NCBI GenBank assembly: GCA_945910005.1
Contig: OX246744.1
Location: 87,501 to 151,500 of the forward strand
Origin: Isoperla grammatica
Taxonomy: Eukaryota; Arthropoda; Insecta; Plecoptera; Perlodidae
Length of the DNA: 64,000 nucleotides
Reading direction: 5' to 3'
Part shown: positions 816 to 42,203 of the stretch, in pieces
Layout: every line of letters begins with the position of its first letter
Numbering within the stretch: position 1 is the first letter of the stretch
Program-made: the position numbers and the translations under genes
The notes under the pieces: generated by a model
What the model was told of the DNA's origin: nothing
The model's input: the letters and a program-made list of their open reading frames with translations, nothing else
Database searches by the model: none

Positions 816-1021
816 GCCAATGTCAGTAAACGTGATCCTATCGGCGCAGTCGTTTGCATCATCCAGCGAGATCTCCTCAAAGTGTGCGGCTATTCGAACG
901 TTGTTCTCGCTAGACAGAAGCCATCGACATCGCACGTTTGCCGGGTAGTTGTTGGGCCAGGCGGGAGATGTCAGTACTTGCGAGCTGTTGGTCACATTCA
1001 AGACCAGCTGACCGCAGATAG
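816..1021 (-). CDS. CUBN: Cubilin exon, CUB-K first half (last in window)
   Basis: Acceptor ttctcggtcag, then ICGQLVLNVTNSSQVLTSP, NYPANVRCRWLL, FEEISLDD and CADRITFTDIG. Donor GGC|GTGAGT (phase 0). CGQ replaces CGG. The second half should lie upstream of base 1. Confidence 0.85.
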
Positions 1022-4000
1022 CTGACCGAGAAACAATGCACACGTTATGTCTTATGTAAGCCATCGACATCGCACGTTTGCCGGGTAGTTGTTGGGCCAG
1101 GCGGAAGATGTCAGTACTTGCGAGCTGTTGGTCACATTCAAGATAGATAGTCACAAGGGACGAGGTCACTGCAGCAGTGAAGCGTGGTGTATGTGTGTGG
1201 TTTCAACTCACAAGGGACGCTGGTCACTGCAGCAGTGAAGCGTGGTGTATGTGTGTGGTACCAACTCACAAGGGACGCTGGTCACTGCAGCAGTGAAGCG
1301 TGGTGTATGTGTGTGGTTTCAACTCACAAGGGACGCTGGTCACTGCAGCAGTGAAGCGTGGTGTATGTGTGTGGTTTCAACTCACAAGGGACGCTGGTCA
1401 CTGCAGCAGTGAAGCGTGGTGTATGTGTGTGGTTTCAACTCACAAGGGACGCTGGTCACTACAGCAGTGAAGCGTGGTGTATGTGTGTGGTTTCAACTCA
1501 CAAGGGACGCTGGTCACTGCAGCAGTGAAGCGTGGTGTATGTGTGTGGTTTCAACTCACAAGGGACGCTGGTCACTGCAGCAGTGAAGCGTGGTGTATGT
1601 GTGTGGTTTCAACTCACAAGGGACGCTGGTCACTGTAGCAGTGAAGCGTGGTGTATGTGTGTGGTTTCAACTCACAAGGGACGCTGGTCACTGCAGCAGT
1701 GAAGCGTGGTGTATGTGTGTGGTTTCAACTCACAAGGGACGCTGGTCACTGTAGCAGTGAAGCCCGGTGCTTCGTTGACTCCATCTGATGCGAATCTGAC
1801 CCACAACCTGTTAGAAGACGACACGATTGGCCCAGAGGGTTGCTCGCCGCAATATGTGCCAATCAGGTCGGAGAACTGCGTGGTTCCATCACGAATCTAC
1901 AAAACGAGACAAATCAGGCTACATACTATACTGTTGGCCACTTTCTGTTGTTTTGTAGACAAAGCTGCAGCCTCACACGGAGAAGCAAAATATTAAAAAG
2001 AGTATAGTGTGAATAAAAAAGTACTTTTTTGCTGCTATCTCCCAGGAAGTTTTCAGCAAAAGGAAAAATAATGCATTTTAAATCATTTGTCAGCATATTT
2101 GACGAAACTAGGATGCACTGTTGTGGATACTAGAACACGACCCTCAGTCTCTTGGATAAACAAACAAACTAGGCCCTTCATCTATTTCCTCCAGCCACCT
2201 TTATACTTTTTTTATGCAAAAGTTATGAGAATTCTGTATGCCTTACCACTCTGCAAAGTTCTACTCAATGGAAACTCAATATCGACCTATCACGATCAAC
2301 TCTTCCCTTGACGAGTAGAATCCGTCTTTTTGGGAGAACTTTTCACGTGTCGCTCTAATAAGTACCGGTAAACAAATAAAGACTGGACAATAGCGATATA
2401 AGTAAATAAGTAAACCATCAAACAAAAAGTTCAAAACAAGTACAAAACAAATGAGACTTAAGTTAACAAAGATTGAAGTGATAGAAGAAGAATATCAAGT
2501 GACAACACAAAGACCTACATGGTAATACACACGCTACATATGACCAAGTGACACAGGCTCACCTCAAGGTAATCGCAGGCACATCCAGCGGTGGCATTGA
2601 AAGTCTTATTGAAGCACGGTGCAACGCTCAACGAGGTAAGCTGCAGGCTGATGGTCTGGCTGTCGGGCCCCGTCAGCAGCCAATGACAGTCGAGGAACGG
2701 CTCATACTTCCCGTCGGAATTCACATCCGGCGAGTGGAGAGTTGTTGCCGAGGGGCCGATCGTCATTTTACCACCACAACCGGCTTTTTCCCCTGCGCAT
2801 TCAACAAGGATATGTCTTTCTATTACCTCGGAGCTGTTATACCTCTAGGTAGGTTCTGACAATACTCATTGTTGTGAGCTAAATAAATACATAACAAAGT
2901 GTGTACAATATGCAAAGCAACTGCTGAATTATCAAACTATGAAAACGTTATGAAATAATGTGTTTTCAAGTCTGTGAGAAACTAATTGTTATCATAATCA
3001 TAATCCCTTCCGCTACGAATGATCAAACATTTTAAAGTCTCCCTAACAATATTTAAAATCCTATTTTCTTCCCAACTCAAATGTTGTGGGTACAAATCTT
3101 AGTGAAGACACTGAATGCAAAAACACTGTAGGCGATTATTTTTCTTTCTCGGCATAACACATAAATTCTAAACAAAAATATTTGATAAACTTGGTTTCGG
3201 GTATCGCCTCCTTCCTGCACTCACCGTACGTAAACAAGACATCGGCACGGACGCGGAAGTTGTCTCGCTGATGCATCATGGTGAGAGATACGACCATCTG
3301 GTTGGTTGTTGACTTGGAGACTGGGGGTCTGACGGACAAGTTGCCGCAGAACTGACCGACCAGAGCAGTTTCGTTGATGATCGCTCCGTCGTAGAGTGAA
3401 ACGCTGTCGTAGTGGCAATGGTAGCTGTGCTCCAACTCCAGGCTGGTAAACCTGAAAGAGCAAATACCATCTTCGTGTCTCCTCTTGCAAGTTCTCACAA
3501 CATAACAATTTGGATAATTAGGGTTGGTACATTTGGCAACTTGTGCTCAACTGTTGAACGTTGTTGCACTCGAGAAAAACTTGTTGGAAATTTTCAGTTT
3601 AGGGCTGGGCAAGAATATCGATATATCGATTCGATATCGATAAGTCACGAATTTTTCGATATCGATATAGAAATATCGAAACAAAATTAAACTGTTATTA
3701 AAAATTTACTAAATGACTGTGTAAATGACATTTCTTTAAAGAAAATGTTGTATTTTCATCTTTTCAAAAGGGTATACATTAGGGGTGGGCACCCAGGATT
3801 TTTAGGGTCGAACTCGAACTCGAATTTCATTAGAAACATATTCCAACTTCGAACTCGAACTACGAAGGAAAAAAAAAAGGAAAAATTGCCACATGACTAA
3901 GGATGTAAATCAAATTCTAAATTTGATTTGGCAACTAGGATACAAAGACATATAGGTCTATGCACCAGGTTAAGATTTGAATGTAATTCTTCAAGATTTA

Positions 4001-7000
4001 CTTAGAATCATTTACAGGGCTTGTATCAGTTTTAAATAATGCTCATTAATAATATTATTGTCACTATACAGACCTAATCTCGCGGAATTTCTATGAATAA
4101 ATTAAGAAACTCATGCTCGAAAATTGTTGTTAATTAAGCGTTGTAGTGTTGGCGGCATTGGTTTGTACTCTTCAGACGTGAGCACCATCTTGCGGAAATT
4201 TAAGGAACTCCTTGGATAAAGAACGCACTGCGGTCGGTAATACCACTTACTACTTTACCGATATTACTACTTTACCGATCTTGCGTCACACGAACGACGC
4301 GGACGCGAACGTGAGCGCTGTCTTGCGGAAATAAAGAAAACTCTTTGCATTAAGATCGCGTGTACGAGCTGTGATTGGTGCGTTCATTCAATAGATCGAT
4401 TTATTCCCGGTTTCGACTTTTTCGTGCATGCGATCTAGCGGAAAAAGCGGGAACTCGTTGGACGAAGATCGCGCGGCGCGCGTTTTGAATAACGAATTCA
4501 GCAAAATGTCGAACTCGAACTTGAATTTTCGAACCCTAACTCGGTTCGAACTTAATTCAAGTTCGGTTAGAGTTCGAAAATTCGAACGTTCGCCCACCCC
4601 TACACAGGGGTGTTGTACCCTTTTCTTACTTGTGGTCATTCCAGACTTTTCTACCTTCTGCGTTAAATTTACAATACCCTTAGTTATGAGTTTTGTATTC
4701 AGACAAATATATATATTATTATCAATAAAAAAGAGTAATAATAATACATTCTTGCATAAAAATAGTTGGTTTTTCATTGTTGTCTCTAGAAACTGGGAGG
4801 TGATAAAATCACTGCAATAATTTTTGATATATCGATATCGAAGTTTTGCTATGTTATCGATAATTGAGCGGTATATCATAGCCCAGCCCTAGTTCAGTTT
4901 GTTCCGTAACCTGCTGAAAGCATCTCCAAAGCATTTACTTATTATGGAGCCACTATTAAAGCATCTAGGAATTTATTTTATCATTTCATGCTTGGACTTC
5001 TCGGTCAAGGTTAAACATTCTAGCTTTTCTTCACTTACAGATGATAACTGTGACATGTTAATATGTGTGTACATACAGTAGTGCTTTTCTTCACTACCTT
5101 ATAGCTGTGACATGTTAATATGTGTGTACATACAGTAGTGCTTTTCTTCACTCCCTTACAGATGATAACTGTGACATGTTAATATGTGTGCACATACAGT
5201 AGTGCTTTTCTTCACTTACAGATGATAACTGTGACATGTTAATATGTGTGTACATACAGCAGTGCTTTTCTTCACTACCTTATAGCTGTGACATGTTAAT
5301 ATGTGTGTACATACAGTAGTGCTTTTCTTCACTCCCTTACAGATGATAACTGTGACATGTTAATATGTGTGCACATACAGTAGTGCTTTTCTTCACTTAC
5401 AGATGATAACTGTGACATGTTAATATGTGTGTACATACAGTAGTGCTTTTCTTCACTACCTTATAGCTGTGACATGTTAATATGTGTGTACATACAGTAG
5501 TGCTTTTCTTCACTCCCTTACAGATGATAACTGTGACATGTTAATATGTGTGCACATACAGTAGTGCTTTTCTTCACTTACAGATGATAACTGTGACATG
5601 TTAATATGTGTGTACATACAGTAGTGCTTTTCTTCACTCCCTTACCGATGATAACTGTGACATGTAATGTGTGTACATACAGTAGTGCTTTTCTTCACTC
5701 CCTTACAGATGATAACTGTGACATGTTAATATGTGTGCACATACAGTAGTGCTTTTCTTCACTTACAGATGATAACTGTGACATGTTAATATGTGTGCAC
5801 ATACAGTAGTGCTTTTCTTCACTTACAGATGATAACTGTGACATGTTAATATGTGTGTACATACAGTAGTGCTTTTCTTCACTACCTTATAGCTGTGACA
5901 TGTTAATATGTGTGTACATACAGTAGTGCTTTTCTTCACTCCCTTACAGATGATAACTGTGACATGTTAATATGTGTGCACATACAGTAGTGCTTTTCTT
6001 CACTTACAGATGATAACTGTGACATGTAATGTGTGTACATACAGCAGTGCTTTTCTTCACTCCCTTACCGATGATAACTGTGACATGTTATTATGTGTGT
6101 ACATACAGCAGTGCTTTTCTTCACTCCCTTACAGATGATAACTGTGACATGTAATGTGTGTACATACAGTAGTGCTTTTCTTCACTCCCTTACAGATGAT
6201 AACTGTGACATGTTAATATGTCTGTACATACAGTAGTGCTTTTCTTCACTCCCTTACAGATGATAACTGTGACATGTTATTATGTGTGTACATACAGCAG
6301 TGCTTTTCTTCACTCCCTTACAGATGATAACTGTGACATGTAATGTGTGTACATACAGTAGTGCTTTTCTTCACTCCCTTACAGATGATAACTGTGACAT
6401 GTTAATATGTCTGTACATACAGTAGTGCTTTTCTTCACTCCCTTACAGATGATAACTGTGACATGTTATTATGTGTGTACATACAGCAGTGCTTTTCTTC
6501 ACTCCCTTACAGATGATAACTGTGACATGTAATGTGTGTACATACAGTAGTGCTTTTCTTCACTCCCTTACAGATGATAACTGTGACATGTTAATATGTG
6601 TGTACATACAGCAGTGCTTTTCTTCACTCCCTTACAGATGATAACTGTGACATGTTATTATGTGTGTACATACAGTAGTGCTTTTCTTCACTCCCTTACA
6701 GATGATAACTGTGACATGTAATGTGTGTACATACAGTAGTGCTTTTCTTCACTCCCTTACAGATGATAACTGTGACATGTTAATATGTGTGTACATACAG
6801 TAGTGCTTTTCTTCACTCCCTTACAGATGATAACTGTGACATGTTAATATGTGTGTACATACAGTAGTGCTTTTCTTCACTCCCTTACAGATGATAACTG
6901 TGACATGTAATGTGTGTACATACAGTAGTGCTTTTCTTCACTCCCTTACAGATGATAACTGTGACATGTTAATATGTGTGTACATACAGTAGTGCTTTTC

Positions 7001-10000
7001 TTCACTCCCTTACAGATGATAACTGTGACATGTTAATATGTGTGTACATACAGTAGTGCTTTTCTTCACTCCCTTACAGATGATAACTGTGACATGTAAT
7101 GTGTGTGTACATACAGTAGTGCTTTTCTTCACTCCCTTACAGATGATAACTGTGACATGTTAATATGTGTGTACATACAGTAGTGCTTTTCTTCACTCCC
7201 TTACAGATGATAACTGTGACATGTTAATATGTGTGTACATACAGTAGTGCTTTTCTTCACTCCCTTACAGATGATAACTGTGACATGTTAATATGTGTGT
7301 ACATACAGTAGTGCTTTTCTTCACTCCCTTACAGATGATAACTGTGACATGTAATGTGTGTACATACAGCAGTGCTTTTCTTCACTCCCTTACCGATGAT
7401 AACTGTGACATGTAATGTGTGTACATACAGTAGTGCTTTTCTTCACTCCCTTACAGATGATAACTGTGACATGTAATGTGTGTACATACAGTAGTGCTTT
7501 TCTTCACTCCCTTACAGATGATAACTGTGACATGTTATTATGTGTGTACATACAGTAGTGCTTTTCTTCACTCCCTTACAGATGATAACTGTGACATGTA
7601 ATGTGTGTGTACATACAGTAGTGCTTTTCTTCACTCCCTTACCGATGATAACTGTGACATGTAATGTGTGTACATACAGCAGTGCTTTTCTTCACTCCCT
7701 TACAGATGATAACTGTGACATGTAATGTGTGTGTACATACAGTAGTGCTTTTCTTCACTCCCTTACAGATGATAACTGTGACATGTAATGTGTGTGTACA
7801 TACAGTAGTGCTTTTCTTCACTCCCTTACAGATGATAACTGTGACATGTAATGTGTGTGTACATACAGTAGTGCTTTTCTTCACTCCCTTACAGATGATA
7901 ACTGTGACATGTAATGTGTGTGTACATACAGTAGTGCTTTTCTTCACTCCCTTACCGATGATAACTGTGACATGTAATGTGTGTGTACATACAGTAGTGC
8001 TTTTCTTCACTCCCTTACCGATGATAACTGTGACATGTAATGTGTGTACATACAGTAGTGCTTTTCTTCACTCCCTTACAGATGATAACTGTGACATGTA
8101 ATGTGTGTACATACAGTAGTGCTTTTCTTCACTCCCTTACAGATGATAACTGTGACATGTTATGTGTGTACATACAGTAGTGCTTTTCTTCACTCCCTTA
8201 CAGATGATAACTGTGACATGTTAATATGTGTGTACATACAGCAGTGCTTTTCTTCACTCCCTTACCGATGATAACTGTGACATGTAATGTGTGTACATAC
8301 AGCAGTGCTTTTCTTCACTCCCTTACAGATGATAACTGTGACATGTTAATATGTGTGTACATACAGCAGTGCTTTTCTTCACTCCCTTACAGATGATAAC
8401 TGTGACATGTTATTATGTGTGTACATACAGTAGTGCTTTTCTTCACTCCCTTACAGATGATAACTGTGACATGTTATTATGTGTGTACATACAGCAGTGC
8501 TTTTCTTCACTCCCTTACCGATGATAACTGTGACATGTAATGTGTGTGTACATACAGTAGTGCTTTTCTTCACTCCCTTACAGATGATAACTGTGACATG
8601 TTATTATGTGTGTACATACAGCAGTGCTTTTCTTCACTCCCTTACCGATGATAACTGTGACATGTAATGTGTGTACATACAGTAGTGCTTTTCTTCACTC
8701 CCTTACAGATGATAACTGTGACATGTTATTATGTGTGTACATACAGCAGTGCTTTTCTTCACTCCCTTACCGATGATAACTGTGACATGTAATGTGTGTG
8801 TACATACAGTAGTGCTTTTCTTCACTCCCTTACAGATGATAACTGTGACATGTTATTATGTGTGTACATACAGCAGTGCTTTTCTTCACTCCCTTACAGA
8901 TGATAACTGTGACATGTAATGTGTGTGTACATACAGTAGTGCTTTTCTTCACTCCCTTACCGATGATAACTGTGACATGTTAATATGTGTGTACATACAG
9001 CAGTGCTTTTCTTCACTCCCTTACAGATGATAACTGTGACATGTAATGTGTGTGTACATACAGTAGTGCTTTTCTTCACTCCCTTACCGATGATAACTGT
9101 GACATGTTAATATGTGTGTACATACAGTAGTGCTTTTCTTCACTCCCTTACCGATGATAACTGTGACATGTTAATATGTGTGTACATACAGTAGTGCTTT
9201 TCTTCACTCCCTTACAGATGATAACTGTGACATGTTATGTGTGTACCCACAGTATTGTTAATGGGATTTATTTATTTAAATGGATATTATAATTTAACCC
9301 TTATTATTTATCAAGAGAAAATACAGATACAACTCCGCACAGGTTTTCGGAATAAACCGGCAGCAGATTTGAGGTCAGGCCACAATGGTAATAAAGGAAT
9401 ATTGTTAACGATCGTGTTTACAACAAGTGAGTGTTCCGTTGATGGAATGCCAATTTGAGTGCAGGATTCAACAGCTTGCCCTAATACTAACAGGCATAGC
9501 AACTCTGAAGTTACTTCTAGGATAGAATACAACTCTATACAAGGGTAGGCCTACTTGCTTTTAGAATGTTTGGTATATAAATACACTAACAAAACGACTA
9601 TGGCTTAGGTTTTCAACCCGCAAACTTGTGCTACGCTCATTTTCGTAGGTATATTCTCTTATCTCAATCAAAATTGGTATGAAAATGTTGTATCAGAACT
9701 TTTCTACAATACAAATACTGTTGGAAATACTAGGAAAATGCTCTGCGTTGCCAGATGAGCGAATTTTTGAAATGTATAATTATTTTTTTGTAGGTTGGCA
9801 TCTTGACAGGTTTTGCTGGTTATGTTAACAGCATCTAGTTTAGTGGTCACGAGTGTTGACTGAAAATTCAAACAAATCCGTCAAGCCGTTTGACCTATGC
9901 ATAACAAACAAAATTCTGTACACAAACAAACACACAAACAAAGCACCGATCGAGTTAAAATGAGAGATTCACTCCGATTCGCTGTGCTCATTTAACTGTG

Positions 10001-13000
10001 TTAAAAAAAGCATTTGTATGATTGAATTAATCATACTTATTATTTACAAAAATTCCATTTTATTACCTTTTCATAGCTAAAGGTACCATTTAACAATACA
10101 TTTCATGAAGTAGGTATTTACAGGAAATAAGAAGCGTAGGAGGATTGGCTTGCCTGACAACGATGACGTTATTAGGCGGAGCTGTTATTGTCCACGTACA
10201 GTTGATTGCCCCCATTAGTACAGTAGCACCCTGAGATATTTCAATCACTCCGGGTGCCCTAATGTCGGAACCGCAGCCTGAAATCAATGTACATTTACTA
10301 GTAACATTAAATAAAGCAACTTAAATACAACAAACACACAAACCATAACCAGGGTAATAGAATAAAAACCATCACCAAAGTGTGCACAACATTTTCTGGA
10401 GCTCTGCTCTCTTCCTCCTCACCAGTGCCCTTGTGTCCATAAACTGAACGTGCCTTATTTTATGATCATGGTTATTGTTCATGTGGTTGTCGGTCTGAGT
10501 CTTGGTTTCATCACAAAGTAAGTTGTTTCGGTAACTGCTAGCTACGATATTTTACAAGGACGGAGTGGAACTAAATACTTGCAGGTACCAAGGCTGTGCC
10601 TCAATGCTTCGTAGTCATCTAAATAATTGCCCGAATAACAATGATCAACAATGAAAGCGAGGTCTAAAGAAGGCAGTAGTTGGCTGGCAGTGAGTTAGCA
10701 GACTAACATTGGAGCTTTGAGATATTTGAGACAGTACAGCAGCCGAGGCTTAGCCAGTCACTGTGGCACTTCAAAATTAAGGCTTTGGTCCCCACGTACC
10801 AATCATGCGCGAGTGTTTACAAGCAGATACAGAATTCCACATGTACCAATCACAACGAGCAAGGCAGTGCTCATGTGCCGATACTTACTGCTAACTTCAA
10901 ACTCCATCATGAACCCCTTCCTCTCCACCTACCAATCATGCGCGAGTGTTTACGTGCAGATACTTACTGCTAAATTCAAACTCCATCACGAACCCCTTCC
11001 TCTCCACGTACCAATCATGCGCGAGTGTTTACGTGCAGATACTTACTGCTAACTTCAAACTCCATCACGAACCCCTTCCTCTCCACGTACCAATCATGCG
11101 CGAGTGTTTACATGCAGATACTTACTGCTAACTTCAAACTCCATCACGAACCCCTTCCTCTCCATGTACCAATCATGCGCGAGTGTTTACGTGCAGATAC
11201 TGCTAACTCCAAACTCCATCACGAACCCCTTCCTCTCCACGTACCAATCATGCGCGAGTGTTTACGTGCAGATACTTACTGCTAACTTCAAACTCCATCA
11301 TGAACCCCTTCCTCTCCACGTACCAATCATGCGCGAGTGTTTACATGCAGATACTTACTGCTAACTTCAAACTCCATCACGAACCCCTTCCTCTCCACGT
11401 ACCAATCATGCGCGAGTGTTTACGTGCAGATACTTACTGCTAACTTCAAACTCCATCACGAACCCCTTCCTCTCCACGTACCAATCATGCGCGAGTGTTT
11501 ACGTGCAGATACTTACTGCTAACTTCAAACTCCATTACGAACCCTTTCCTCTCCACGTACCAATCATGCGCGAGTGTTTACGTGCAGATACTTACTGCTA
11601 ACTTCAAACTCCATCACGAACCCCTTCCTCTCCACGTACCAATCATGCGCGAGTGTTTACGTGCAGATACTTACTGCTAACTTCAAACTCCATCACGAAC
11701 CCCTTCCTCTCCACGTACCAATCATGCGCAAGTGTTTACGTGCAGATACTTACTGCTAACTTCAAACTCCATCACGAACCCCTTCCTCTCCACGTACCAA
11801 TCGGAACGGAAGTCGAGAGTGAGCCTGTCTTTAAACGACCTCTCTGGCGGCATGTTAGTGCCACAGTAAGTACCAAGGGCTTGGACTTCTCTTGACCAGT
11901 AGTTTTGTAGGCCATATAGGGTGACGTTATCGTAGCGACAAATCTAAAAACGATAATGCAGGATTGTGACGTTCCTTAAAGATCAACATAACAGGTCAAC
12001 TCTCAATTGGGCTACTGGTTCAATTGTCACTGAGTATAACTACATTAAGTAGCTTGGGGTCATTGATATAACGTACTTGAAAGCAAACAAATTTCAAAGA
12101 GCAATGTTGAAATTTAATTCTTACACTAATTGCAAACTGTCAAATAACACTTCTCCTCTAAGCAATAGCTAATATAGTAGGGGTGGGCGAACCCAGGATT
12201 TTTAGGGTCGAACTCGAACTCGAATTTCATTAGAAAAATATTCGAACTTCGAACTTGAACTTGAACTTCGAAGGAAAAAAAAAGGAAAAATTGCCACATG
12301 ACTAAGGATTTATATCAAATTCTAAATTTGATTTGGCAACTAGGATACAAAGACATAATATGCACCAGGTTAAGATTTGAATGTAATTCTTCAAGATTTA
12401 CCTAGAATCATTTACAGGGCCTGTATTAGTTTTAAATAATGCTCATTAACAATATTATTGTCACTATACAGACCTAATCTTGCAGAATTTCTATGAATAA
12501 ATTAAGAAACTCATGCTCGAAAATTGTTGTTAATTAAGCGTTGTAGTGTTGGCGGCATTGGTTTGTACTCTTCATACGCGAGCACCATCTTGCGGAAATT
12601 TAAGGAACTCCTTGGATAAAGAACGCATTGCGGTCGGTATTACTACTTAATACTTTACCGATATTACTACTTTACTGATCTTGCGTCACGCGAACGTGAG
12701 CGCTGTCTTGCGGAAATTTAAGGAACTCCTTGGATAAAGAACGCACCGCGGTCGGTAATACAACTTACTATTTTACCGATATTAATACTTACTACTTTAC
12801 CGGTCTTGCGTCACACGAACGACGCGGACGCGAACGTGAGCGCTATCTTGCGGAAAGTGAGTAAACTCTTTGCATTAAGATCGCGTGTACGAGCTGTGAT
12901 TGGTGCGTTCATTCAATAGATCGATATATTCCCAGTTTCGACTTTTTCGTGCATGCGATCTAGCGGAAAAAGCGGGCACTCGTTGGACGAAGGTCGCGCG

Positions 13001-28000: not shown

Positions 28001-31000
28001 TGAAGTGTACACTCAGACCGGTAAGTAGCTAGTCGTACCAGAAAAAAACAATCATAGCATTCACATGAAACAAAGCATGAACATGAATTCTTACAAAAAA
28101 TTAGCAAAACTTTGCTGCTTTAAGTGAAAATTAGAGAAAATGGTTAATTTTAGCAATATAGATACCTTTTAGTAATAAATAGCAGAAATGATAAGGAAAG
28201 GATGTATTTAGACTAAAACCTACCAAAAGTTTGAAAAATTAATTCAATATCTAATTTCTCTAGCCATTTAGCATTTATAGATTTAACTATATTTATGAGA
28301 CCCTACGACTATACGATTGTCGCCGGTTTCAGGAGTTTGACGAGATTGGCGGCATCCTGGTTCACAAGACGGCCGACACGAACCGGTTTATACGCGAGGA
28401 TGCAAACTGCGCCCTAGACGAGATGGTGACGCACATCCCTGCCCTCAACACCGTGCGTGTGTTGGTAGACAAGGGGGCCAGCCACAAGAACGCGTTGGTG
28501 CGCATAGCCGTGGCGAGACTGCTCACCTGCGTGGTGGCGCTGACTGGACCCGAGAACATATTGGGACCCAAGGGACAAAAGGAGACTCGCCGGAGAATCT
28601 TACAGACCATAGCCAAGTTCATGGATGACTGTAGCCTGGAGACACGGTGAGTCACATCATACTCAAAACTATGTACATATAATATGTGAAATACTAGTAC
28701 AATGAGATGATATCTGTGTTTCAGAGAATATGCCAGAAAACTCTACAGGCAACTTCTCGAGTACGACGAGTTTGAGTTTCATTTTCACAATGACGTGGAC
28801 AACAACACCCTGAGACATATAGAGAAGACCATGATAAAGCTCAAATATGATGTAAGTTCTGGTTTGATCTATCCCACTCAACATGTTCAAGTATAATCTT
28901 CCACGGTCTGTCCGTTTCAAGGCTAGACGCGTATTGCAGAACGAAATCAGCCGCCGTGCGTTATGTCACTGTATTTTAGTCGGATATGCGACAGAGCTGC
29001 ATGGTTGGTAGTCACTGTGGAGCTACCCAGACTAAACCCAATGCTCTTATTGTTCTAAATCGTGGCGGACAAAGTTCTGTCACACACTTTATGGTTTGGT
29101 GTAGTTTAAACTCTATCCAACAATGCTTACACATTTATATTTATTTATTAACTAAACGAGTCGCCAAGGCACTGCCTGAGAGCTGCACAGAGTGAGAACT
29201 GATGAATTAGGAACTAGGCTAGGCCTATCATCCATCAACATTTCACTAGGCCTAGGTCACGCCAGCTAGGCCCTACCTAACCTCAATCAAAGGTTCGCTT
29301 GCCACTTCCATCCACCCTCGACAGCATAGGCCTACTATGCATTATTTCCATAAGATCATCAGTTGGCCAAAATGTCTCAAACTAGTTATTTGTGTGTTTA
29401 CTTCCTCATCTTTATGTTTCTCAATGCAATCTCAAATAACTGCCATCCTGTACCTTTTCCATCACTGGAACATGTATATTCATGTTCTTGGTTTCAATCT
29501 CACCCCCTTTGGCCTCTGTACCAGTGCTTAATTTCAGGGCGGACGCGTCCGCCTACTCTTTTTTCGTGGGCGGACACGTCCGAAAGTCAATACGATGTTG
29601 TATTGACACTTTGACAGAACCATTGACAGAACTAATCACGCGAAATTTGTATGAATAGCTCATGCTCGAAAATTGTTGTTAATTAAGCGTTGTAGTGTTG
29701 GCGGCATTGGTTTGTACTCTTCATACGTGAGCACCATCTTGCGGAAATTTAAAGAACTCCTTGGATAAAGAACGCACTGCGGTCGGTATTACTACTTACT
29801 ACCTTACCGATATAACTTCTTTACCGATCTTGCGTCACGCGAACGTGAGCGCTATCTTGCGGACAGTGAGTAAACTCTTTGCATTAAGATCGCGTGTAAG
29901 AGCTGTGATTGGTGCGTTCATTCAATAGATCGATTTATTCCCGGTTTCGACTTTTTCGTGATCTAGCGGAAAAAGCGGGAACTCGTTGGACGAAGATCGC
30001 GCGGCGCGCGTTTTGAATAACGAACTCAGAAAAATGTTGAAGTCGAACTTGAATTTTCGAACCCGAACTCGGTTCGAACTTAATTCAAGTTCGTTTCGAG
30101 TTCGAAAATTCGAACGTTCGCCCACCCCTATCCTGAGTGTCAATCATGGCAACCCCACCACGCTGAAGAAAAAGATTGGCGAGTGTCCGCCCACTTCTTA
30201 TTTTAGAAATTAAGCACTGCTCTCTACCCGCAAATACAAATTAAGTTGTATACACATCTTTAATATGTTGTAATGCTTTCTGTTTACAGAGTGAATCTGC
30301 AATATTTGATGAAGATGAAAACTGAACAAAACTAATAACTACCAAATACTAATAAAAATATTAAAATCAAACTGAATCATTGCACATTACCTTTGTAGAT
30401 GCACCGTTTTTATGAGCAAGAAGAAAAGAACATACCCACATCATATTGTTTCAAGTAACTTACTATTTCATCTGTATTGACAGTACTAAAATACAGGTGG
30501 GTTCGTAACTAGGTGGAAAACATCAAATCTACTTCCATCGTAATGGGGCTCATATATCGTACAAGTCTAGTGATTTGGCATGGCAATTAACTTCCATACT
30601 GTGATGTCTCTCGACATTTTCAGTAAGATAATGGACCACCCTGGGTCAGGTTGTGTTAGGTCACAATCAGTGTTGTTAAGTAGCGCGCTACTAGCATGTT
30701 ACTTTTTTTGGTAGCGAGACTGGTAGCGTGCTACATTTGAAAATGCAGTAAAGTAGTGAGTAGCAAGCTACTATATACGAGTATTTGTAGCGAAAAATAG
30801 CCGCTACTCTATTTTTGCAATTTTGCAATGCAATATAAAATATAAAACCTCTTATAGACATATATTTGTGGCTTCTAAGTTGTTGCTAACATTATTTTCA
30901 TAAACATAAAAATGATCATTGGTAAGAAAGCCTAGATTTTCAAAGAAATAATTAATTAGTATGTACTCCTGGTCCTTTATAACAAATTAAAGTAGCTGTA

Positions 31001-34000
31001 AAGTAGCGTCACTACTTTTTTTGAGTAGCTGTACAAGTAGCGAGCTACTTACAAATTACAGTAGCTGAAAAGTAGCTAAGTTACTTTCAAAGATCAAGTA
31101 GCTGTAGCTGTAACAGTGCTACTTTTAAAAAGTAGCTTTAACAACACTGGTCACAATACTGGTTGAAACAAGATAAGTTGCTTGGATCATGTGCAATAAG
31201 TCTGGGTCCGTTGGCTTTCTAGCATATTAACAGTATGATGTAGTTGTGTTTTTAAACTGTCGATGCACTTAGAGTAGTATTATATTAATGACAATAACAA
31301 TAATTAGAAACTTAATATTATTTTTGTGTGGATTATTAATGTGTAGTAGAGTAGTACAAAGTTTTAACTAGAATTCCTTGTGAATGCATTTCCCATGCCC
31401 CAATACAAGTTTAAAATTCACTCCTCAGATTATTGGAAAGAGCTTGTGGTTAGATAACAGGAATACTCTCCTTGCAGTTCTGCTTGCGAGCGAACCAAAG
31501 ATGCGTTCACCAATCATCGGTTCCGTTTCCCAAATGCCGGCACGAAACACGGTCGCCGATTGGAGAACGCATACTTGATTCGTTTGTGATACCCAACTCT
31601 AAGGAAATGTAACGAGTCACTCACCGAAAACGACCGGCTCGAGGGTGAGATTGAATCCTGGCCTCTGATTGGTCGAGTCCGAGTGGAAGTCTATCCACAG
31701 CACGTTGGACTGGGAGTTGAAGTCTGCAGGAACGTTGTTACCGCAGTACTTGCCGACGACGGGAGACTTTGGACTAGCGCCGTTGTGGATCACGACATAG
31801 TCTTTGTCGCACGACGCTTCCAGGTCCAAGTTGTTGAAATGTATCTGGAAACATCATCCATGCCTGTATACTCATTTCCCAGACACAAGACCCATACATT
31901 TGCACACAACTTGTTGTTTTACATCTATGTTATTGAAATCATACTATTGGAGATCATACCCTTATGAATTTCTAGACAAGACGACTGATTCTAGATAATT
32001 ATTAAATTTTAATTTTTTTTCTTAATGTTAAAAGATCCAGAGTTGCTAATTGGCCACTTAATTGGCCACTAATCTTGCCAAAATATCAATCAACCCTACT
32101 CACTGGCCACTGCTCATTATTACACTTATTTGTTTTATTTGTTGCACTGGGAATTTATATCATGAAATATACTTTAGTATGTATGTAGTATGTATGTTTA
32201 TTTAGTATGTATGTGGCTTATGCAGTTAGGGCACAGGCCCGTACGCCACCTAGGGAGTGGGTTCTAATCCCATATTAAGGCATGGTTTATTTTGCAAATG
32301 ACCTTCATCTTCATCTACCACCCCACATTGTCTGACATGATAGATGTAAAGCAACAAGAACTCATCATCAATAGGCTACTTGCATAAGTTCCATATATGG
32401 TTTTAAACTATGTAGGTTCATAGTTTTTTGTGTACAGAATCCGAAAAAAATACGTTTTACAAAAAAAAATAATTACCTAGTGAGTAAAAACAGAGTTAAA
32501 AAGCAGTAAATATTTGAATTTCCTCACTATTGAGAAACGCGCACGGATTGGCTGACGCGTTTTTGACGTCATCGGCCTGCACGCTAGCCCGCGCCTTCAA
32601 AGCTACAGCGGTGAGGTGAGCGTGACAATGACGGAACAAGGATTTAAAAAGGGTCAATCGGATAATTTATGTCGAATAGATAGTTTCATGGTAGCCGAAT
32701 ATCTAGGCAACAGTGACAACCATGTTAGAGCTGAAATGAAGAATGTAAAAGCAGAGAGGTAAGGAACATAATATTATGAACTTTGTTACCTATATTTTCA
32801 TAGCCTAGGCCTAAAAGATGGTAGGCCTAATCAGTTATATCTTCGGCGTTACTTTAACTAGTCTTGTATTATTATTAGTGTGTGATAAAGTCTTGCCCGT
32901 TCTTTATTACTATTTTCTGTCACTAATAATCAACCTCCACCCGTCAGGTGACCTTGGTAGGCGCCGTAGAACATCACAAATGTGGGCCTTGTACTAGGCC
33001 TAGGCCTAGGCCTATCCCTTGTCCGAAATTGTGTTTGACAATTTGTTATTGTTTAAAGTGAACCCAATGCCTATGCCACGTATACGTATATAAGCCTAGG
33101 CCTTCATACGGCTTCTACTAGTAAACTAAATGTCCAATTCCCGTGCCTGTCACACTAGACCCTACCTTAATATTTAAATAGAATAAGGATAACCCTAAAC
33201 AACTAGGTCTAGTCTTCTAGTTAAAGGTATATGTAAATTGATTTAGGAATTAGGATATAGCACTATCCATAAATGTTGTGACACAATCACGTACCTATTC
33301 CCCCCACCCCCAATTATACAGCCCTATAGCCATAAATGTAAATTCAATTTTAAGACCTACCTACAGAGTTTCTCTCACTGCCATTCAAACTTATTTTTTC
33401 CATTTCTGCAGATCAGGTAGAGAAAGTTACGGAGATGCAGCAGTGGGATATGTGCAGGTTCGAAGAGTGCAGTCGCTCTGTACAGTGAAAGGGAGAGTGT
33501 GTCCCGAACACCGAGTTCGAGCCAAAGGATATTCTGTGACACTGACACTCGACGAAGAAAACGAAAAAGTTATCAGCGTAGAATGTCACGATTGTGCGGC
33601 GTCTGTAGGTATGTGTGGCTACTGGCTAGATCTAGTACCTACTGGTCTGTTACCAATATGGAATATTACGGTTCACTGACACAAATATTGTGTGTTTTAT
33701 TGCAGGAGGATGTAAACATTCTATTGCATTCTTGATGTGGTTGCATCGAAGGAGTGAAGAACCTGCATGCACCTCAGTCCAGTGCTACTGGAAAAAATGT
33801 AAACTTGCAACAGTAGGTACTGGATTGAAGTTTATTGAAGTTAAGGAATTTAATAAAGAACCTCTAACACAGGAGGAAAATGATGTTGAAAATGACTTTT
33901 TAAGAGAAGTTATTGAGGAGGGTACCAAAAGGTCTGTGAACAGTCAATTAATCAAACATTTTAGTGGCAACCCACAAAATCCTGCACAAGGACTCTCAAT

Positions 34001-37000
34001 GCATTCATTAATTTCACACTACAAACAAAGTGAAAATTTAACATATCAAAATTTCTTAAATACATCTCGTGTTTTAATGTCTGAATCTTTATGTCATGAA
34101 GCGGCTTCATTGACACAAGGTCAGGCAGACAATAAGTTGTGGTATGAGTTGCGTTATGGAAGAATAACGGCATCGAAAATTTACGAAGCTGCCAGGTGCA
34201 AAACACTAAAAGGTTCCTTGGTGGAGGCCATACTTGGTGCTAAAAAGATAAAGGACACAGAGGCAATGCAACGTGGGAGAACTCTAGAGAAAGAGGTAAT
34301 TGAAGTTGTTGCAAACAAAATTAAAAAAAAGTTAAGAAGAGAAGGCCTTCTTTTAAATCCTAAGTGGCCAATGCTAGGAGCTTCTCCGGATGCTGTAGGA
34401 GATGATGTGGTAGTTGAAGTAAAGTGCCCTACTTCTGAGAAATCAGTACAACGATATGTCAATAATGGTAAAATTAATCCAAAGTTTTTAGCACAGATTA
34501 ACCTCCAAATGCTCATGGCTGGAAAACAAAAGGGATATTTTTGTATCGCAGATCACACTTTTGAATCAACAAGACAAGTAACAACATACATGGTAAATTA
34601 TGATCAAGAATTTATTGAACAAATTATTGAAGATGGAATACACTTCTGGAAAAAAGCTGTATTTCCAATACTTCTTAAGGGTACACAGTAGTATACTGTA
34701 TATATACATAATACATATGTGTACATACGAGTGGAAATGTAGAAGGCGTATTGAAATAAACTAGGAAAACGGTCTGTTTGACGCGTTGATAAGCGAGCGC
34801 GTCCATCTACGAACTTTGTGGCGAAAAGTTCTCAAAACTAATAAAAACCACAACAACAATTCAAGAATCGCATTGCAAAATTGTTTCTAATTTCCATAGC
34901 TATTATACTTTCCGACATTGTTGAAAGCAGTGCAATGTGCGTTGAAAGAATTTTCATTGTCATGTTTTCAACATGGTCCGCCACCGTTACCAACACTTAT
35001 TGACAGCAATAGAAATGTAATTTCTGCCTCTAATACGTATCCGATTGGATTTAAATTAGTATATTCGTGACCAGACCAAAATTTACTATAAGATAGCCCT
35101 ATAAGATAGCCACCTCAAATTTTGCTGTTACTGTGTTTCAGAAAAATATTTTTGAGTAACTTTTGTGTAACTTTGCCAATATTTATTAAATCGCAATAAA
35201 ATGAACATATTCGTGACCGGAAAAATTTTAGAAAAATATGGCTATCTCACATTTTGCCGCCATTTTGTTCAGAAAAATATTTTGCAGTAACTATGGTGTA
35301 ACTTTGTAACTTTTCGAACGATTTTGCCACAAAACTAAACACCTTCAATCCACATCGAGGCTTGAGGATGGTCCAAATTTCAAGTTGACCGGACTTTCCG
35401 TTCAAACGCTATTGACAGACATAAAAAAAAACAACGAAGTGCCATAAAGGTCTAATGGAGACGCTCGCTTAATTATGTAGTACCAGTTCCGGTACTCAAT
35501 ACTAAACCACTCCAACCGATTGATATCAACATAACCTATAGGTTAGCACAACTGACGTAACAGCTGAACTACAACAATGGAATAAATGAATTGAACTGGT
35601 AGACAAACAACCAGCTGTCAAAGTAATATCTTTGCAAATAATGAGGAGAAACAATTAGTTGTAACTATAGTAACTGCTCGCCAGTTTAAATTTATTTTCA
35701 TTAATGGACAGCAACTATCTGACGTAAACGTTTGTAAACGTTCTGAACGTTTGTTTTCCCAACTTCAGAACTTCATATTTTTTTTAACAGCTTGTTTGTC
35801 CATCGGTTCAATTCATTTGTTTCATTGTTGTGTTTTGGTGTTGTGCGTACCCTATACACATATTACATTTATACATAGCACACAATGTAAAAATGTAGCA
35901 TACACATTTTTAAATTAAATCCATATTATGATTGTCAGTTACTTCTTCATTTTATAATTTACTTTGTTACGAGTTTGTACATACAATGTGGGCCTAAGTT
36001 TGTCTTTTGGCATGTAATAAAAGAAAAAGACATGAAATAAACATGAAGACTCTGTGTCATGTAACATACTTAATGTTGTAGCCCAAGTTCAAATTAACAA
36101 GAAAGTGATTCCTGACGAGCAGTTATATCTACCTATTTAATCAATGGTCCTTGCAAATTAACAATCCCAGCAGCAACTATCACTGCATGATCAGCAAGAT
36201 AAACAGATTCAATATCAATGCATGCATGAGGTGCTAAGAATGCAAACTCTCTAAATCTTCTAATTACTCTTTCAATGTGTATACGTAGGCTAGCAATAAC
36301 TTTCGTTTGAATGACATCCTCACGAGTACATTTTGTATCTGCCGACACACTTGGAGGTCGAATAAGGGTACAACCTTTTCTAAGTAAATGTGCATCCAAA
36401 TGTTTAAAGCCCCTGTCAGCCATTACAGCCATTCCAGGAGTCAGTTTATCAAGAAATCCACAATGCTCTGTTATTGTAATATCACTTGTTCGACCGCCGT
36501 AACCACTTGAGATAAAATTAACTAACCCATCAGGAGTTGACGACACAAAATACTTAACAGTATTAGCCTTTTTGTATTCAGACCAAGTAAGTGCTTGTGT
36601 TACTGGATTTGATGGTTTTTGGATTTCTATTTCAAAACAGTCTATGATTGACTGAACATTACTGAACCTTGCTCTAAAGGATATTGGCAACAACTGTTGA
36701 ATACTTTCTTTAGTTGGCCAAACCACAAGTTGTTTCATATATTTGGAAATTTCTGGTAATGTGGTTTTAAAAATTCGGCTTGCCTGAGAGAGAGAAATAC
36801 CAAAGTCATGCCCCAATGTAACAAGTGAAGCATTAAGCCGAAGCTTTTTTAATGTCAGCAAGACGTTTTCCCTAGCTTTTCTAGAATGTAGCCTTTTTGA
36901 CAGCAAATCAACTAAAAACCAACAATCATCAGGTAAACCCAAGTATTGCCTAGGATGTTTTTCAATCAATAACAATGTTCTCTTTAAACTTAGCATTTGC

Positions 37001-40000
37001 AGTTCATCGTTGGCAAACTTTTCAAAATCCGAGTCCATGTAACTTGTGTCAGTGCATGTGGCTGACGTATATGTTGCATTGACACTACTTTCACACGAAT
37101 CAGTATCACTTGGCAGCTCCAGTACCTTCTTAAGTAGAACTTGTTTCTGGAACTTGATTGGAGAAGTCTGGACATTGATTCCCGGTTTAATAGGCAAACA
37201 TGCTGTGCTGGCAGTAGAGGTGTCTCTTTCTAGATAAGATACATCAATGCTAGTACCTTTACTACGGTAGGTTGGCCTTGCTTGGACACCCTTGTCTACA
37301 AATGTTGCTGAAAATAAATAAAATAACATTAGGCCCTAGTTGTTTAATTAATAATTAGAAGGCGGTAGGCCTAACCAAGCAAAATACAAACTTTTTTTTT
37401 TTTATCATATGCCCACATTTGGCTTAATCAGGCCATTAATTAATGTTATATTAATGTTTGCTTAGCAATTGATTTTGTTATCATGAAACCATTATTATGC
37501 ATCTAGAAATGTATGCATGTAGGCCTAGGATGTATGATTTATTTATTTAAAATCCAATTAATTTTTTATTTTCATTTTTATAATGATTAGGGCCTACTTG
37601 AGATATTTGTAGGTTTAATTTGTTTTTATTAAGAATTAAATTGGTATTTTTTGTATGTAACAACATGTGTGTCACAAATTATCAAATAAACTTGAGAAAT
37701 GAAATTTTATATTATTATTTACATGTTTTAAGGAAACCTTAGCATAATACACCCTAATTCTTTGGTTTTTAGCTCAAGAAAAAGTGAATCTTAAGGCCAA
37801 GGGACAATACTGCTTAAGGCTCATTCACAATCAGTTTTTAGGCGTTAGGTCTAAGGCGTAAGGCGTATGGTTTAATATTGCCAAGCGTATGTTTCAATGT
37901 AACTGTTCACAACGCGTCGTATGTTATAAGGCGTAAGGCGCAAGTTGTAGTGAATTGCCCAAAATCCAATTCTTACGACGAGACTCTTACGACGAACCAA
38001 TCCCAACAAGGTATCTCCCTCTCCTACCATACACAGCTGATACACTGCCATGCAGTCATGTGTCCAACACCGTGGTCGAACATACAAAAGGCTGTGCATC
38101 GTCATTGCCGCGTCCGTTGCGCATGCGTAGAACAACGGGGCGTTTCCAAAATCATTCTATTGTGAACGGTTGGCTTTTCCTACGCCTTACGACTTAAGAC
38201 CTTACGCCTTAGACCTTACGCCTTAAAACTGATTATGAATGATGCTTAATGTAAACATAAACCTAACCTCCATTCTTAAATTTAAATCAAATGATCCCAT
38301 TGAACTATTCCTGTACAAGCCAAATGGCTCATAGCAAATATAAATGTAGGCCTATATACATTATCCTTACGGTACTAACAATATGTTTTTAGGTGCAAAT
38401 TTGTTTAGCACTTGAATATGGATATAATTAGTAGGCCTATATAACTCTGGTAGGCCTTGGGGTCGAGCCATGGTTCACAGTAGGCCTACTAGGGAATTTT
38501 CAAAATTTTTTTTTCCTTCTCATGCGATGATGACTTTTCAGCCATTCATTTTTCTTGCTATCCAATACAAATAAATACAAATATGTACATGTATTATAAC
38601 ATGCAAATGAATCTATTGGGGTCAGTGGTTAAAGTGGGGCGGTATGAGCCGGTATGTATGTATACCGTTACATAGATCCTCCGACATACCCGCTTTGTCT
38701 GCTTTACACAGCATTAGTGCATACCGTCACTTCTCCGAGTCCACTTTAACCACTGATTGGGGTGCTTACTTATAATTGGTGGAAGGCCTAGACCTACGGG
38801 TATATATTATTTTATTTATTTATTGTGGTTAATTAATTAGGCTTAATGAAACATACCAGTTGGTGTAGCGATAGAGCATATATTATTTCCATCAACTTCT
38901 AAATCCAAAGATTCACTATGTGTTTCTTGCATGATTGTATCCTGGCTTGTGGAAAGTAGTTCAAGCTCTCTTGCACCCTGTATTTCCGACATGCTCAAAA
39001 TTTGTGTTATGTACCGTTTATGTACAACAGCTGATCTGGGTGTTGACGAATGTGCTGCTTTTCTATTGGGTTGGCAATCAAAAATATGAGGTACTTTTTC
39101 GGGTTTCATTCTGATGGCACCACCCACTAAATTGTAATGCACCCAGTTGTCAGCATCAACTTCCATCTAAAAATAATAAAGCAATTTTGTTATTACAAAG
39201 GCACATAGATCTAGGCCTAGTACTAATTATGTGACAATATGGCTATTGTGTAATTAAATGTAGGCCTAGTAGCTAAATCTATTATACTATTCTTTTTGTG
39301 TGTCACATGTGTATGTGAAACTAGAAAATGCACTAAGTAATTTTCAAATAAAATAATAATATGATGACTCTAATGACAGTATCCGTATTTTATAAACATA
39401 CGTAGGGCGTAAAAGGTTTCCATCTGTAGTCCACATTCTAGAGCTATGGATTTACTTCTTTATTTGAGCAAGTGTCAGCAAAGAACTGGCAGTATAAAGA
39501 GATAAGGCCCTAAACAAAGTCTGGTAAAACAGTAGGCCTCTATAAATTGATAAAATTTATTGAATAAATATAGGTATTGATAAATATAATTTCTATGACA
39601 GTCTAGAAAATACCTACGAATAGTCTAGCCTAGGTCCTAGGCCTACCCCTACACTTAACTAGGCCTAGCCTATTGAATAGGCTACCAAAACCTCCTTACT
39701 GAACCAACGAACTGTCATTGTGACAGAACTACTAGGGGCCTAGGCCTAGGCTAGGCCTAGGCCTACGCCTTGTACAATGTACATTTTACGCCTAGGCCTA
39801 GCTGTGTACAAAACGTCCTTGAAGCTTCCGTTATTGAAGCTCAAGACATTTCATCCTTCAAAATAACTAGGCCTAATATAGCATAATGATTTGTTCTAGC
39901 CTACTATCTGTATACGTACGTTAAAGTGATCTTGACAACAATACATTGTTGACTTGGATTTTGGGACATCTCGTTTGGCTGCTTTCATCCAGTTCTTTCT

Positions 40001-42156
40001 TCTCTTAGCATCTTTCGGAACACTAACAAATATTTTAGTTGGTGTCTTTACAGTCGTATTCGTACATAGTGGAACAAAACACCACTTGTATGGAATTTTG
40101 TACCTGCGTTTTCGTTTGCAATCCAACTCGGGCGATGCAGCCATCGCAACAGCTATGCAACAGCTGTGTTGGGAGTGGGACTGTTGGTTTGCGCCAATGC
40201 CTGCGCTCGCAGGCAGCGTAGAGGCCGAGTACGTCATAAAGATGGCGCTTCGTTCAAACATCGTTTTCGAGCGCGGTAAAGGGAGGGAAAACTACTTATT
40301 TATTTTCTCCGTCAAAAAAGGAAAAAATAAATTTTTTTAAATTGCATTGCTCTTAGACGTGTAATATCTTCAAAGTAGAGTAATAAAATTGTGTTATGCA
40401 AGTAGCCTATTATGGGGAAACATATTTGTACAATGCCGGAGTGCCGGGACTCTTGTGGCTTACCTTGATAGATTGCCCAGGGGGAAACTCCACGGACCAG
40501 GCACAGTCCGTGTCCGGAGGATAGTTGGCCGGGGCGCCCGGACTCTTGTGGCTTACCTTGATGGACTGCCCAGGGGGAAACTCCACGGACCAGGCACAGT
40601 CCGTGTCCGGAGGATAGTTGGCCGGGGCGCCCGGACTCTTGTGGCTTACCTTGATGGACTGCCCAGGGGGAAACTCCACGGACCAGGCACAGTCCGTGTC
40701 CGGAGGATAGTTGGCCGGGGCGCCCGGACTCTTGTGGCTTACCTTGATGGACTGCCCAGGGGGAAACTCCACGGACCAGGCACAGTCCGTGTCCGGAGGA
40801 TAGTTGGCCGGGAAGCCCGGACTTGTGACAGTCTCCGTGGGTCCCGTCAGCTGACCTCCACATGGAGAGGTCTTGTAGCTCAGTGCAAAGGTCACACTGC
40901 CATGCCACGTGCCAGCTGACGCCTGCCAACAACCAATACAGAGCCTCATGCACAGTAGGCTACCCTTGTCTTGTGACAGTCTCCGTGGGTCCCGTCAGCT
41001 GACCTCCACATGGAGTAGCTCAGTGCAAAGGTCACACTGCCATGCCACGTGCCAGCTGACACCTGCCAACAACCAATACAGAGCCTCATGCACAGTAGGC
41101 TACCCTTGTCTTGTGACAGTCTCCGTGGGTCCCGTCAGCTGACCTCCACATGGAGAGGTCTTGTAGCTCAGTGCAAAGGTCACACTGCCATGCCACGTGC
41201 CAGCTGACGCCTGCCAACAACCAATACAGAGCCTCATGCACAGTAGGCTACCCTTGTCTTGTGACAGTCTCCGTGGGTCCCGTCAGCTGACCTCCACATG
41301 GAGAGGTCTTGTAGCTCAGTGCAAAGGTCACACTGCCATGCCACGTGCCAGCTGACGCCTGCCAACAACCAATACAGAGCCTCATGCACAGTAGGCTACC
41401 CTTGTCTTGTGACAGTCTCCGTGGGTCCCGTCAGCTGACCTCCACATGGAGAGGTCTTGTAGCTCAGTGCAAAGGTCACACTGCCATGCCACGTGCCAGC
41501 TGACGCCTGCCAACAACCAATACAGAGCCTCATGCACAGTAGGCTACCCTTGTCTTGTGACAGTCTCCGTGGGTCCCGTCAGCTGACCTCCACATGGAGA
41601 GGTCTTGTAGCTCAGTGCAAAGGTCACACTGCCATGCCACGTGCCAGCTGACGCCTGCCAACAACCAATACAGAGCCTCATGCACAGTAGGCTACCCTTG
41701 TCTTGTGACAGTCTCCGTGGGTCCCGTCAGCTGACCTCCACATGGAGAGGTCTTGTAGCTCAGTGCAAAGGTCACACTGCCATGCCACGTGCCAGCTGAC
41801 GCCTGCCAACAACCAATACAGAGCCTCATGCACAGTAGGCTACCCTAGTCTCCGTGGGTCCCGTCAGCTGACCTCCACATGGAGAGGTCTTGTAGCTCAG
41901 TGCAAAGGTCACACTGCCATGCCACGTGCCAGCTGACGCCTGCCAACAACCAATACAGAGCCTCATCCAGAGTCCTACTTGCACAGTAGGCTACCCTAGT
42001 TTCCCTTTAATTTTAATTACAAGGGACCCTAAAAACTCAAACTTGAATTACAATTGCACTAAGAAAAGCTTTGCCCAAACGTTCTGTAGAGACTTGATCA
42101 CTAGTTTCAATTATACATAAATATGATATATTATATTTATATTATATAAAATATAT

Positions 42157-42203
<47 letters not shown>

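Follow-up and report, generated by a model that had tools for sequence, protein, structure and literature searches.

Tandem repeats whose unit runs across an exon-intron boundary are known in amphioxus as ‘mirages’, a name given for the pattern seen in the Adh3 gene (Canestro et al. 2002, PMC117041, as cited in PMC3087553). Excerpts of PMC3087553 describe mirages in the amphioxus globin genes BflGb6 and BflGb9, on the acceptor and donor sides, where the units measure 150-160 and 157 bp, and report that the Adh3 data and globin RT-PCR suggest that regular splicing is not disturbed by mirages. Excerpts of two further reports describe 60- and 108-bp repeats at splice sites of lancelet PGBD5 (PMC3902484) and an amphioxus VCBP gene with introns that contain partial exons and splice sites (PMC2632668). 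Searches of open-access literature, judged by titles and the beginnings of abstracts, brought up no mirages named outside cephalochordates.

Here we analysed 64 kb of animal DNA without any N (this whole stretch is referred to as the window), in which five arrays (A, B, C, D and E, the last a pair of copies) and two further pairs (A' and F) lie at exon edges. Their architecture matches the known one of amphioxus mirages, of which the window appears to hold a new instance. The repeat unit crosses the exon-intron boundary in arrays A to E, A' and F being pairs of copies and F having no second donor, donor and acceptor sides are both affected (with the acceptor of D resting on reading phase), and splice signals are present in many copies but not in all, being lacking in one copy of B and in the truncated copy of A. 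The window differs from the amphioxus mirages in that one exon is arrayed on both sides (C and D) and in that seven cases lie within 64 kb. With lancelet PGBD5 it shares short tandem repeats that abut or overlap splice sites, which the excerpts of PMC3902484 read as protein-neutral, but unlike those of the window the PGBD5 repeats are imperfect, present in few copies and varied in copy number between assemblies. In Rogers-type intron gain, as relayed in the excerpts of PMC3087553, exon DNA with splice signals is likewise duplicated; here, in contrast, the introns appear to be pre-existing and to have been lengthened by the arrays, so that no intron gain is shown.

A multi-CUB gene with a TOG-domain gene nested in one intron

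Two genes bear the arrays:

816..62860, minus strand: multi-CUB (cubilin-like) gene, 21 exons proposed, running past both window ends
27690..28800, plus strand: part of a TOG-domain gene, with exons 27690-27882 and 28333-28648 and a third from 28725 (Pfam CLASP_N, sequence)

Exons of the CUB gene were called by combining Pfam, in-house half-domain profiles and splice sites. Pfam CUB scored at or above its threshold in 12 of the 15 minus-strand stretches and just under it in one (20.9 vs 21.4), and two were without a CUB match; the domains are mostly divided between a 5'-half exon and a 3'-half exon. As the in-house profiles were made from the window's own exons, they give circular E-values for them. 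Four weak exons (at 45.1, 43.9, 42.8 and 10.3 kb; E-values of 0.03-1.9 with the in-house profiles) were accepted because they fill the alternating half-domain pattern and fit the frame. For one joined CUB domain the best solved structure was Cubilin (3kq4; E-value 2.2e-57), and we use ‘cubilin-like’ as a label of similarity that does not imply orthology.

The TOG-domain gene, which presumably corresponds to TOGARAM, is nested on the opposite strand inside the 14.2-kb CUB intron 17388-31624. Its joined exons match Pfam CLASP_N (TOG) with 48.0 bits, and a comparison of the domain with solved structures gave no match. The coordinates that fit the frame are 42764 in the CUB gene and 28333 in the TOG gene, and the GC content of exons is 0.547 vs 0.411 for the whole window. 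Two plus-strand ORFs, of 152 aa (55041-55499) and 225 aa (56576-57253), lie within the 14.9-kb CUB intron; the latter is rich in lysine and glutamate and has no Pfam match.

Seven duplications at exon edges on donor and acceptor sides

Tandem arrays were identified with Tandem Repeats Finder (TRF) and local pairs with self-BLAST, giving the following at exon edges:

918..1143, minus strand: pair A', a second copy of 86 bp of exon 1021-816, lying 140 bp upstream (98.8%) on the other side of the acceptor
1151..1763, minus strand: array A, 58 bp x 10.6, end of exon 1896-1734 with its donor and 29 nt of intron (TRF, 98% matches)
10783..11802, minus strand: array B, 79 bp x 11.8 and further, decayed copies on the distal side, covering the end of exon 11943-11754 and the donor
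27755..28038, plus strand: pair E, 138 bp x 2, end of TOG exon 27690-27882 with its donor
40435..40823, minus strand: array C, 93 bp x 4.2, end of exon 40922-40743 with its donor (TRF, 97% matches)
40822..42004, minus strand: array D, 148 bp x 7.9, start of exon 40922-40743 with its acceptor
61762..61897, minus strand: pair F, decayed, 45 bp of exon 62053-61839 repeated directly past the donor (86.7%)

The spans given by TRF itself are 10875-11802 for B (96% matches), 40822-41973 for D (96% matches) and 27758-28038 for E (x 2.0, 100% matches). Each array unit is made up of an exon edge, the splice site and some intron, and the repeats lie on the donor side in A, B, C, E and F and on the acceptor side in D and A', so that exon 40922-40743 is arrayed at its donor end by C and at its acceptor end by D. 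The self-BLAST copies of pair A' (918-1003 and 1058-1143) are fused with array A where that array ends distally, and on our reading of the sequence only about 65 nt of the 712-nt intron 1733-1022 are outside repeated copies. In pair F (copies 61762-61806 and 61853-61897) the second copy is without a second donor, and this pair need not have originated as a full tandem unit.

The first-pass annotation of this DNA had described five exon-edge arrays of common architecture in two genes, on donor and acceptor sides and with units that differ in sequence and length. All five were confirmed, and A' and F were found in addition. The unit lengths of 58, 79, 93 and 148 bp given there also hold; the 128-bp unit listed there had no counterpart and was probably the 138-bp pair E, or A'.

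Copies are near-identical except at the outer ends of the arrays

The donor of array A is intact in all 10 full copies and absent from the truncated 11th copy, and matches to splice sites amount to 11 donors in B, four in C and two in E and to eight acceptors in D; one copy of B has four bases missing at the donor. Within arrays the copies are near-identical, in their exon and intron parts equally, and differ by single substitutions, by an 8-base loss in one copy of D and by the truncation of the final A copy. The outer copies have changed: the distal ones of B are decayed and the terminal ones of C and D altered. Ages spread from identical copies through to a decayed pair. To go by these differences, the copies other than the outer ones look like the product of recent growth or homogenisation; in the excerpts of PMC3087553, a globin mirage of amphioxus likewise leaves out the outer copies. 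Homology at the junction is clear in pair E only (5 bp, CGTAC), the other junctions being ambiguous, and in array C the intron is similar to the exon stretch joined to it.

Repeats of this kind could come from the assembly, if it had collapsed or expanded them or placed both haplotypes in series, as the earlier annotation had also suggested. The identity of pair E over 138 bp would fit such an artefact, as would the misassembly of one mirage in a draft genome mentioned in the excerpts of PMC3087553. However, copies carry private variants, outer copies have decayed and pair F is 13% diverged. Variants confined to one copy, together with the decay, speak against the arrays being artefacts throughout, and we consider an assembly artefact most improbable.

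Exon-proximal sites keep the reading frame

Joining exons at the exon-proximal sites retains the frame in arrays A, B, C, D and E. The join at these sites completes a CUB domain in A (profile positions 1-109 of 110), B (1-110 of 110) and C (1-109 of 110, across the junction), and the junction of E sits within the 48.0-bit CLASP_N (TOG) match. In array D, Pfam did not call the CUB domain whose end lies shortly past the acceptor, and this acceptor was assigned from the reading phase and from the CUB start in the same exon; the proposal that the proximal copy completes a conserved domain is therefore borne out for A, B, C and E and not for D. Distal sites lead to stops or frameshifts with one to four extra copies in A, with one to three in B, at the distal acceptors of D that were tested (three of seven) and at the sole distal donor of E, for which the join was computed with acceptor 28331 instead of 28333, the stop preceding that point. 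These frame effects are most simply read as use of the exon-proximal site and tolerance of the remaining ones.

Only array C stays open and in frame with zero to three extra copies, each of which adds 31 residues, and Pfam still finds the CUB domain. Its open frame would not speak against a role at the protein level, and one may ask whether array C is partly exonic and gives rise to protein variants with added 31-residue CUB pieces, with which the open frame and the persisting Pfam match would agree. Yet the join without any extra copy already yields a complete CUB domain (1-109 of 110), and the other arrays behave differently, so that we regard an exonic array C as very unlikely.

The frame effects also bear on the earlier proposal that redundant splice sites have been selected to secure the recognition of exons beside very long introns. 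Such selection would be in line with the splice sites being intact in nearly all copies and with the strong donor of array C (11.0). However, donor scores at array edges are 6.3-11.0 vs about 4.4-10.8 for the other chosen donors, on manually entered scoring matrices on which these values depend. The array-bearing introns of the CUB gene measure 440, 712, 1476, 1841 and 8898 nt, the remaining 15 range from 80 to 14901 nt, and neither of the two longest (14.2 and 14.9 kb) is flanked by an array, which indicates that the arrays do not owe their presence to redundancy for long introns. Moreover, intron parts of the copies are as much alike as exon parts, as recency predicts, and in A, B, D and E the distal sites tested lead to stops or frameshifts. 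We therefore rejected redundancy for long introns on intron lengths, donor scores and frame effects, and we give the selection of redundant sites scarcely any credence.

The excess at exon edges depends on what is placed at random

The chance tests used 16 local direct duplications, namely 10 TRF arrays (period of at least 30, rows of shorter period being dropped) and six direct pairs from self-BLAST, together with 48 mapped exon edges, one of which is a placeholder (28800) and two of which are approximate (60300 and 10150). The 16 contain the pair 12576-12884, which lies within a dispersed repeat and is left out of a set of 15 duplications. With one unit per duplication placed randomly, the seven of 16 duplications that span an edge compare with 1.04 expected (P = 3.0e-5), and with GC-matched placement of the units they compare with 2.14 (P = 1.4e-3). 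Allowing one event per intron or exon leaves five of 14 (P = 7.8e-4 uniform, 7.3e-3 GC-matched), and adding 48 random edges for unseen exons gives P = 9.2e-4 in the set of 15. When whole arrays were placed randomly, five of 10 spanned an edge vs 2.70 expected, which is not significant (P = 0.08; 0.08, 0.14 and 0.16 across three sets). We prefer the unit as the object to be placed because array length follows later growth, and acknowledge that this is a choice; furthermore, the P values are optimistic because the window was selected for looking striking. The claim of a concentration beyond chance therefore stands when units are placed and fails when whole arrays are placed. Independent reports from other genes would weigh more than these P values, provided that they concern the same kind of animal.

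Base composition contributes to the pattern, as GC matching doubles the expected edge count, and part of the excess remains, which may reflect fragility linked to the boundary or the bias of a single window. It could be argued that the arrays are ordinary minisatellites, and that their position at edges comes from high GC around exons, from easier detection through one conserved copy and from the choice of a striking window. The doubled expectation of 2.14, the nine of 16 local duplications that lie away from mapped edges and the P of 0.08 for whole arrays all agree with this explanation, but seven against 2.14 is still improbable (P = 1.4e-3), the copies of A to D are near-identical, so that one conserved copy cannot aid detection, and the excerpts of PMC3087553 describe the same pattern in other amphioxus genes, a point that is valid if the host is amphioxus. 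We therefore think that ordinary minisatellites are an unlikely explanation.

A local-alignment scan of the 48 edges returned six at the 1% level, which are A, A', B, C, D and E, followed by pair F (p = 0.02) and three further edges (p = 0.015 to 0.033). Two of these three are accounted for by the pair 43647-43693 / 43746-43795 (82%), which lies entirely inside a 189-nt intron and is not an edge case, and the third is 61398. With only six of 48 edges at the 1% level, we rejected the idea of hidden decayed arrays at every edge. Hairpins were likewise rejected as a common cause, as five of the six unit stretches fold no better than shuffles, the exception being A (z = -3.3). The duplication at 21479-21661 (88 bp x 2.1), with an acceptor-like TTGCAG at the end of the unit, was counted as non-edge and could be the edge of an unmapped plus-strand exon.

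A probable origin as mirage-type minisatellites

We consider it likely that the arrays are mirage-type minisatellites, which would have started as duplications spanning an edge, grown on the intron side and been tolerated by virtue of the intact exon-proximal copy. The basis for this in the sequence is the content of the units, the retention of sites in nearly all copies, the frame effects and the spread of ages. The first event would be the short tandem duplication of a segment spanning an exon edge, with little homology at the join, and slippage or unequal exchange would then multiply the unit on the intron side, with interior copies remaining alike and outer copies decaying. Such an array would be nearly neutral, with splicing at the exon-proximal site, and would be tolerated because the exon-proximal copy keeps the exon and its splice site whole.

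On a more general level, exon edges might be a genome-wide hotspot of tandem duplication beyond base composition, triggered at the boundary itself, in an animal that may be a non-cephalochordate, a reading that we put forward tentatively and would not lean towards. Transcription-linked breaks or R-loops near splice sites, for instance, could then start the duplications, and if this reading were true and the animal lay outside the cephalochordates, mirages would be a broader animal phenomenon. With seven duplications of differing ages within 64 kb, and arrays at both ends of one exon, the window allows tests of why exon edges duplicate, how introns grow and how splicing chooses among identical sites.

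Other repeats and elements in the window

Intronic minisatellites are also found off exon edges, with a 64-bp unit in 66 copies (5034-9244) and a 37-bp unit in 112 copies (46283-50461), both from TRF. The 64-bp array was considered as a missed mirage and rejected, since the flanking CUB half-domains join and thus no exon was missed there.

The intron adjoining array C holds a DNA transposon at 32370-40411, which we take to be of the ISL2EU family, with a YqaJ-type ORF (33690-34691, plus strand), a DDE_Tnp_4 transposase (36133-37329, minus strand) and a THAP stretch (39896-40261, minus strand). Its candidate 18-bp inverted ends (32370-32387 / 40394-40411) score 36 vs a shuffled maximum of 28 (n = 100), and the right end lies 24 bp from array C.

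Across the window, the palindrome TAGGCCTA is present 31 times vs 0.86 expected from base composition, an excess that is perhaps a signature of the genome. In addition, the window contains a dispersed repeat at 3774-4602, 12172-13114 and 29626-30131 (about 85-91% between copies) and an inverted repeat of about 448 bp at 53356-53803 / 54064-54504 (97.8%).
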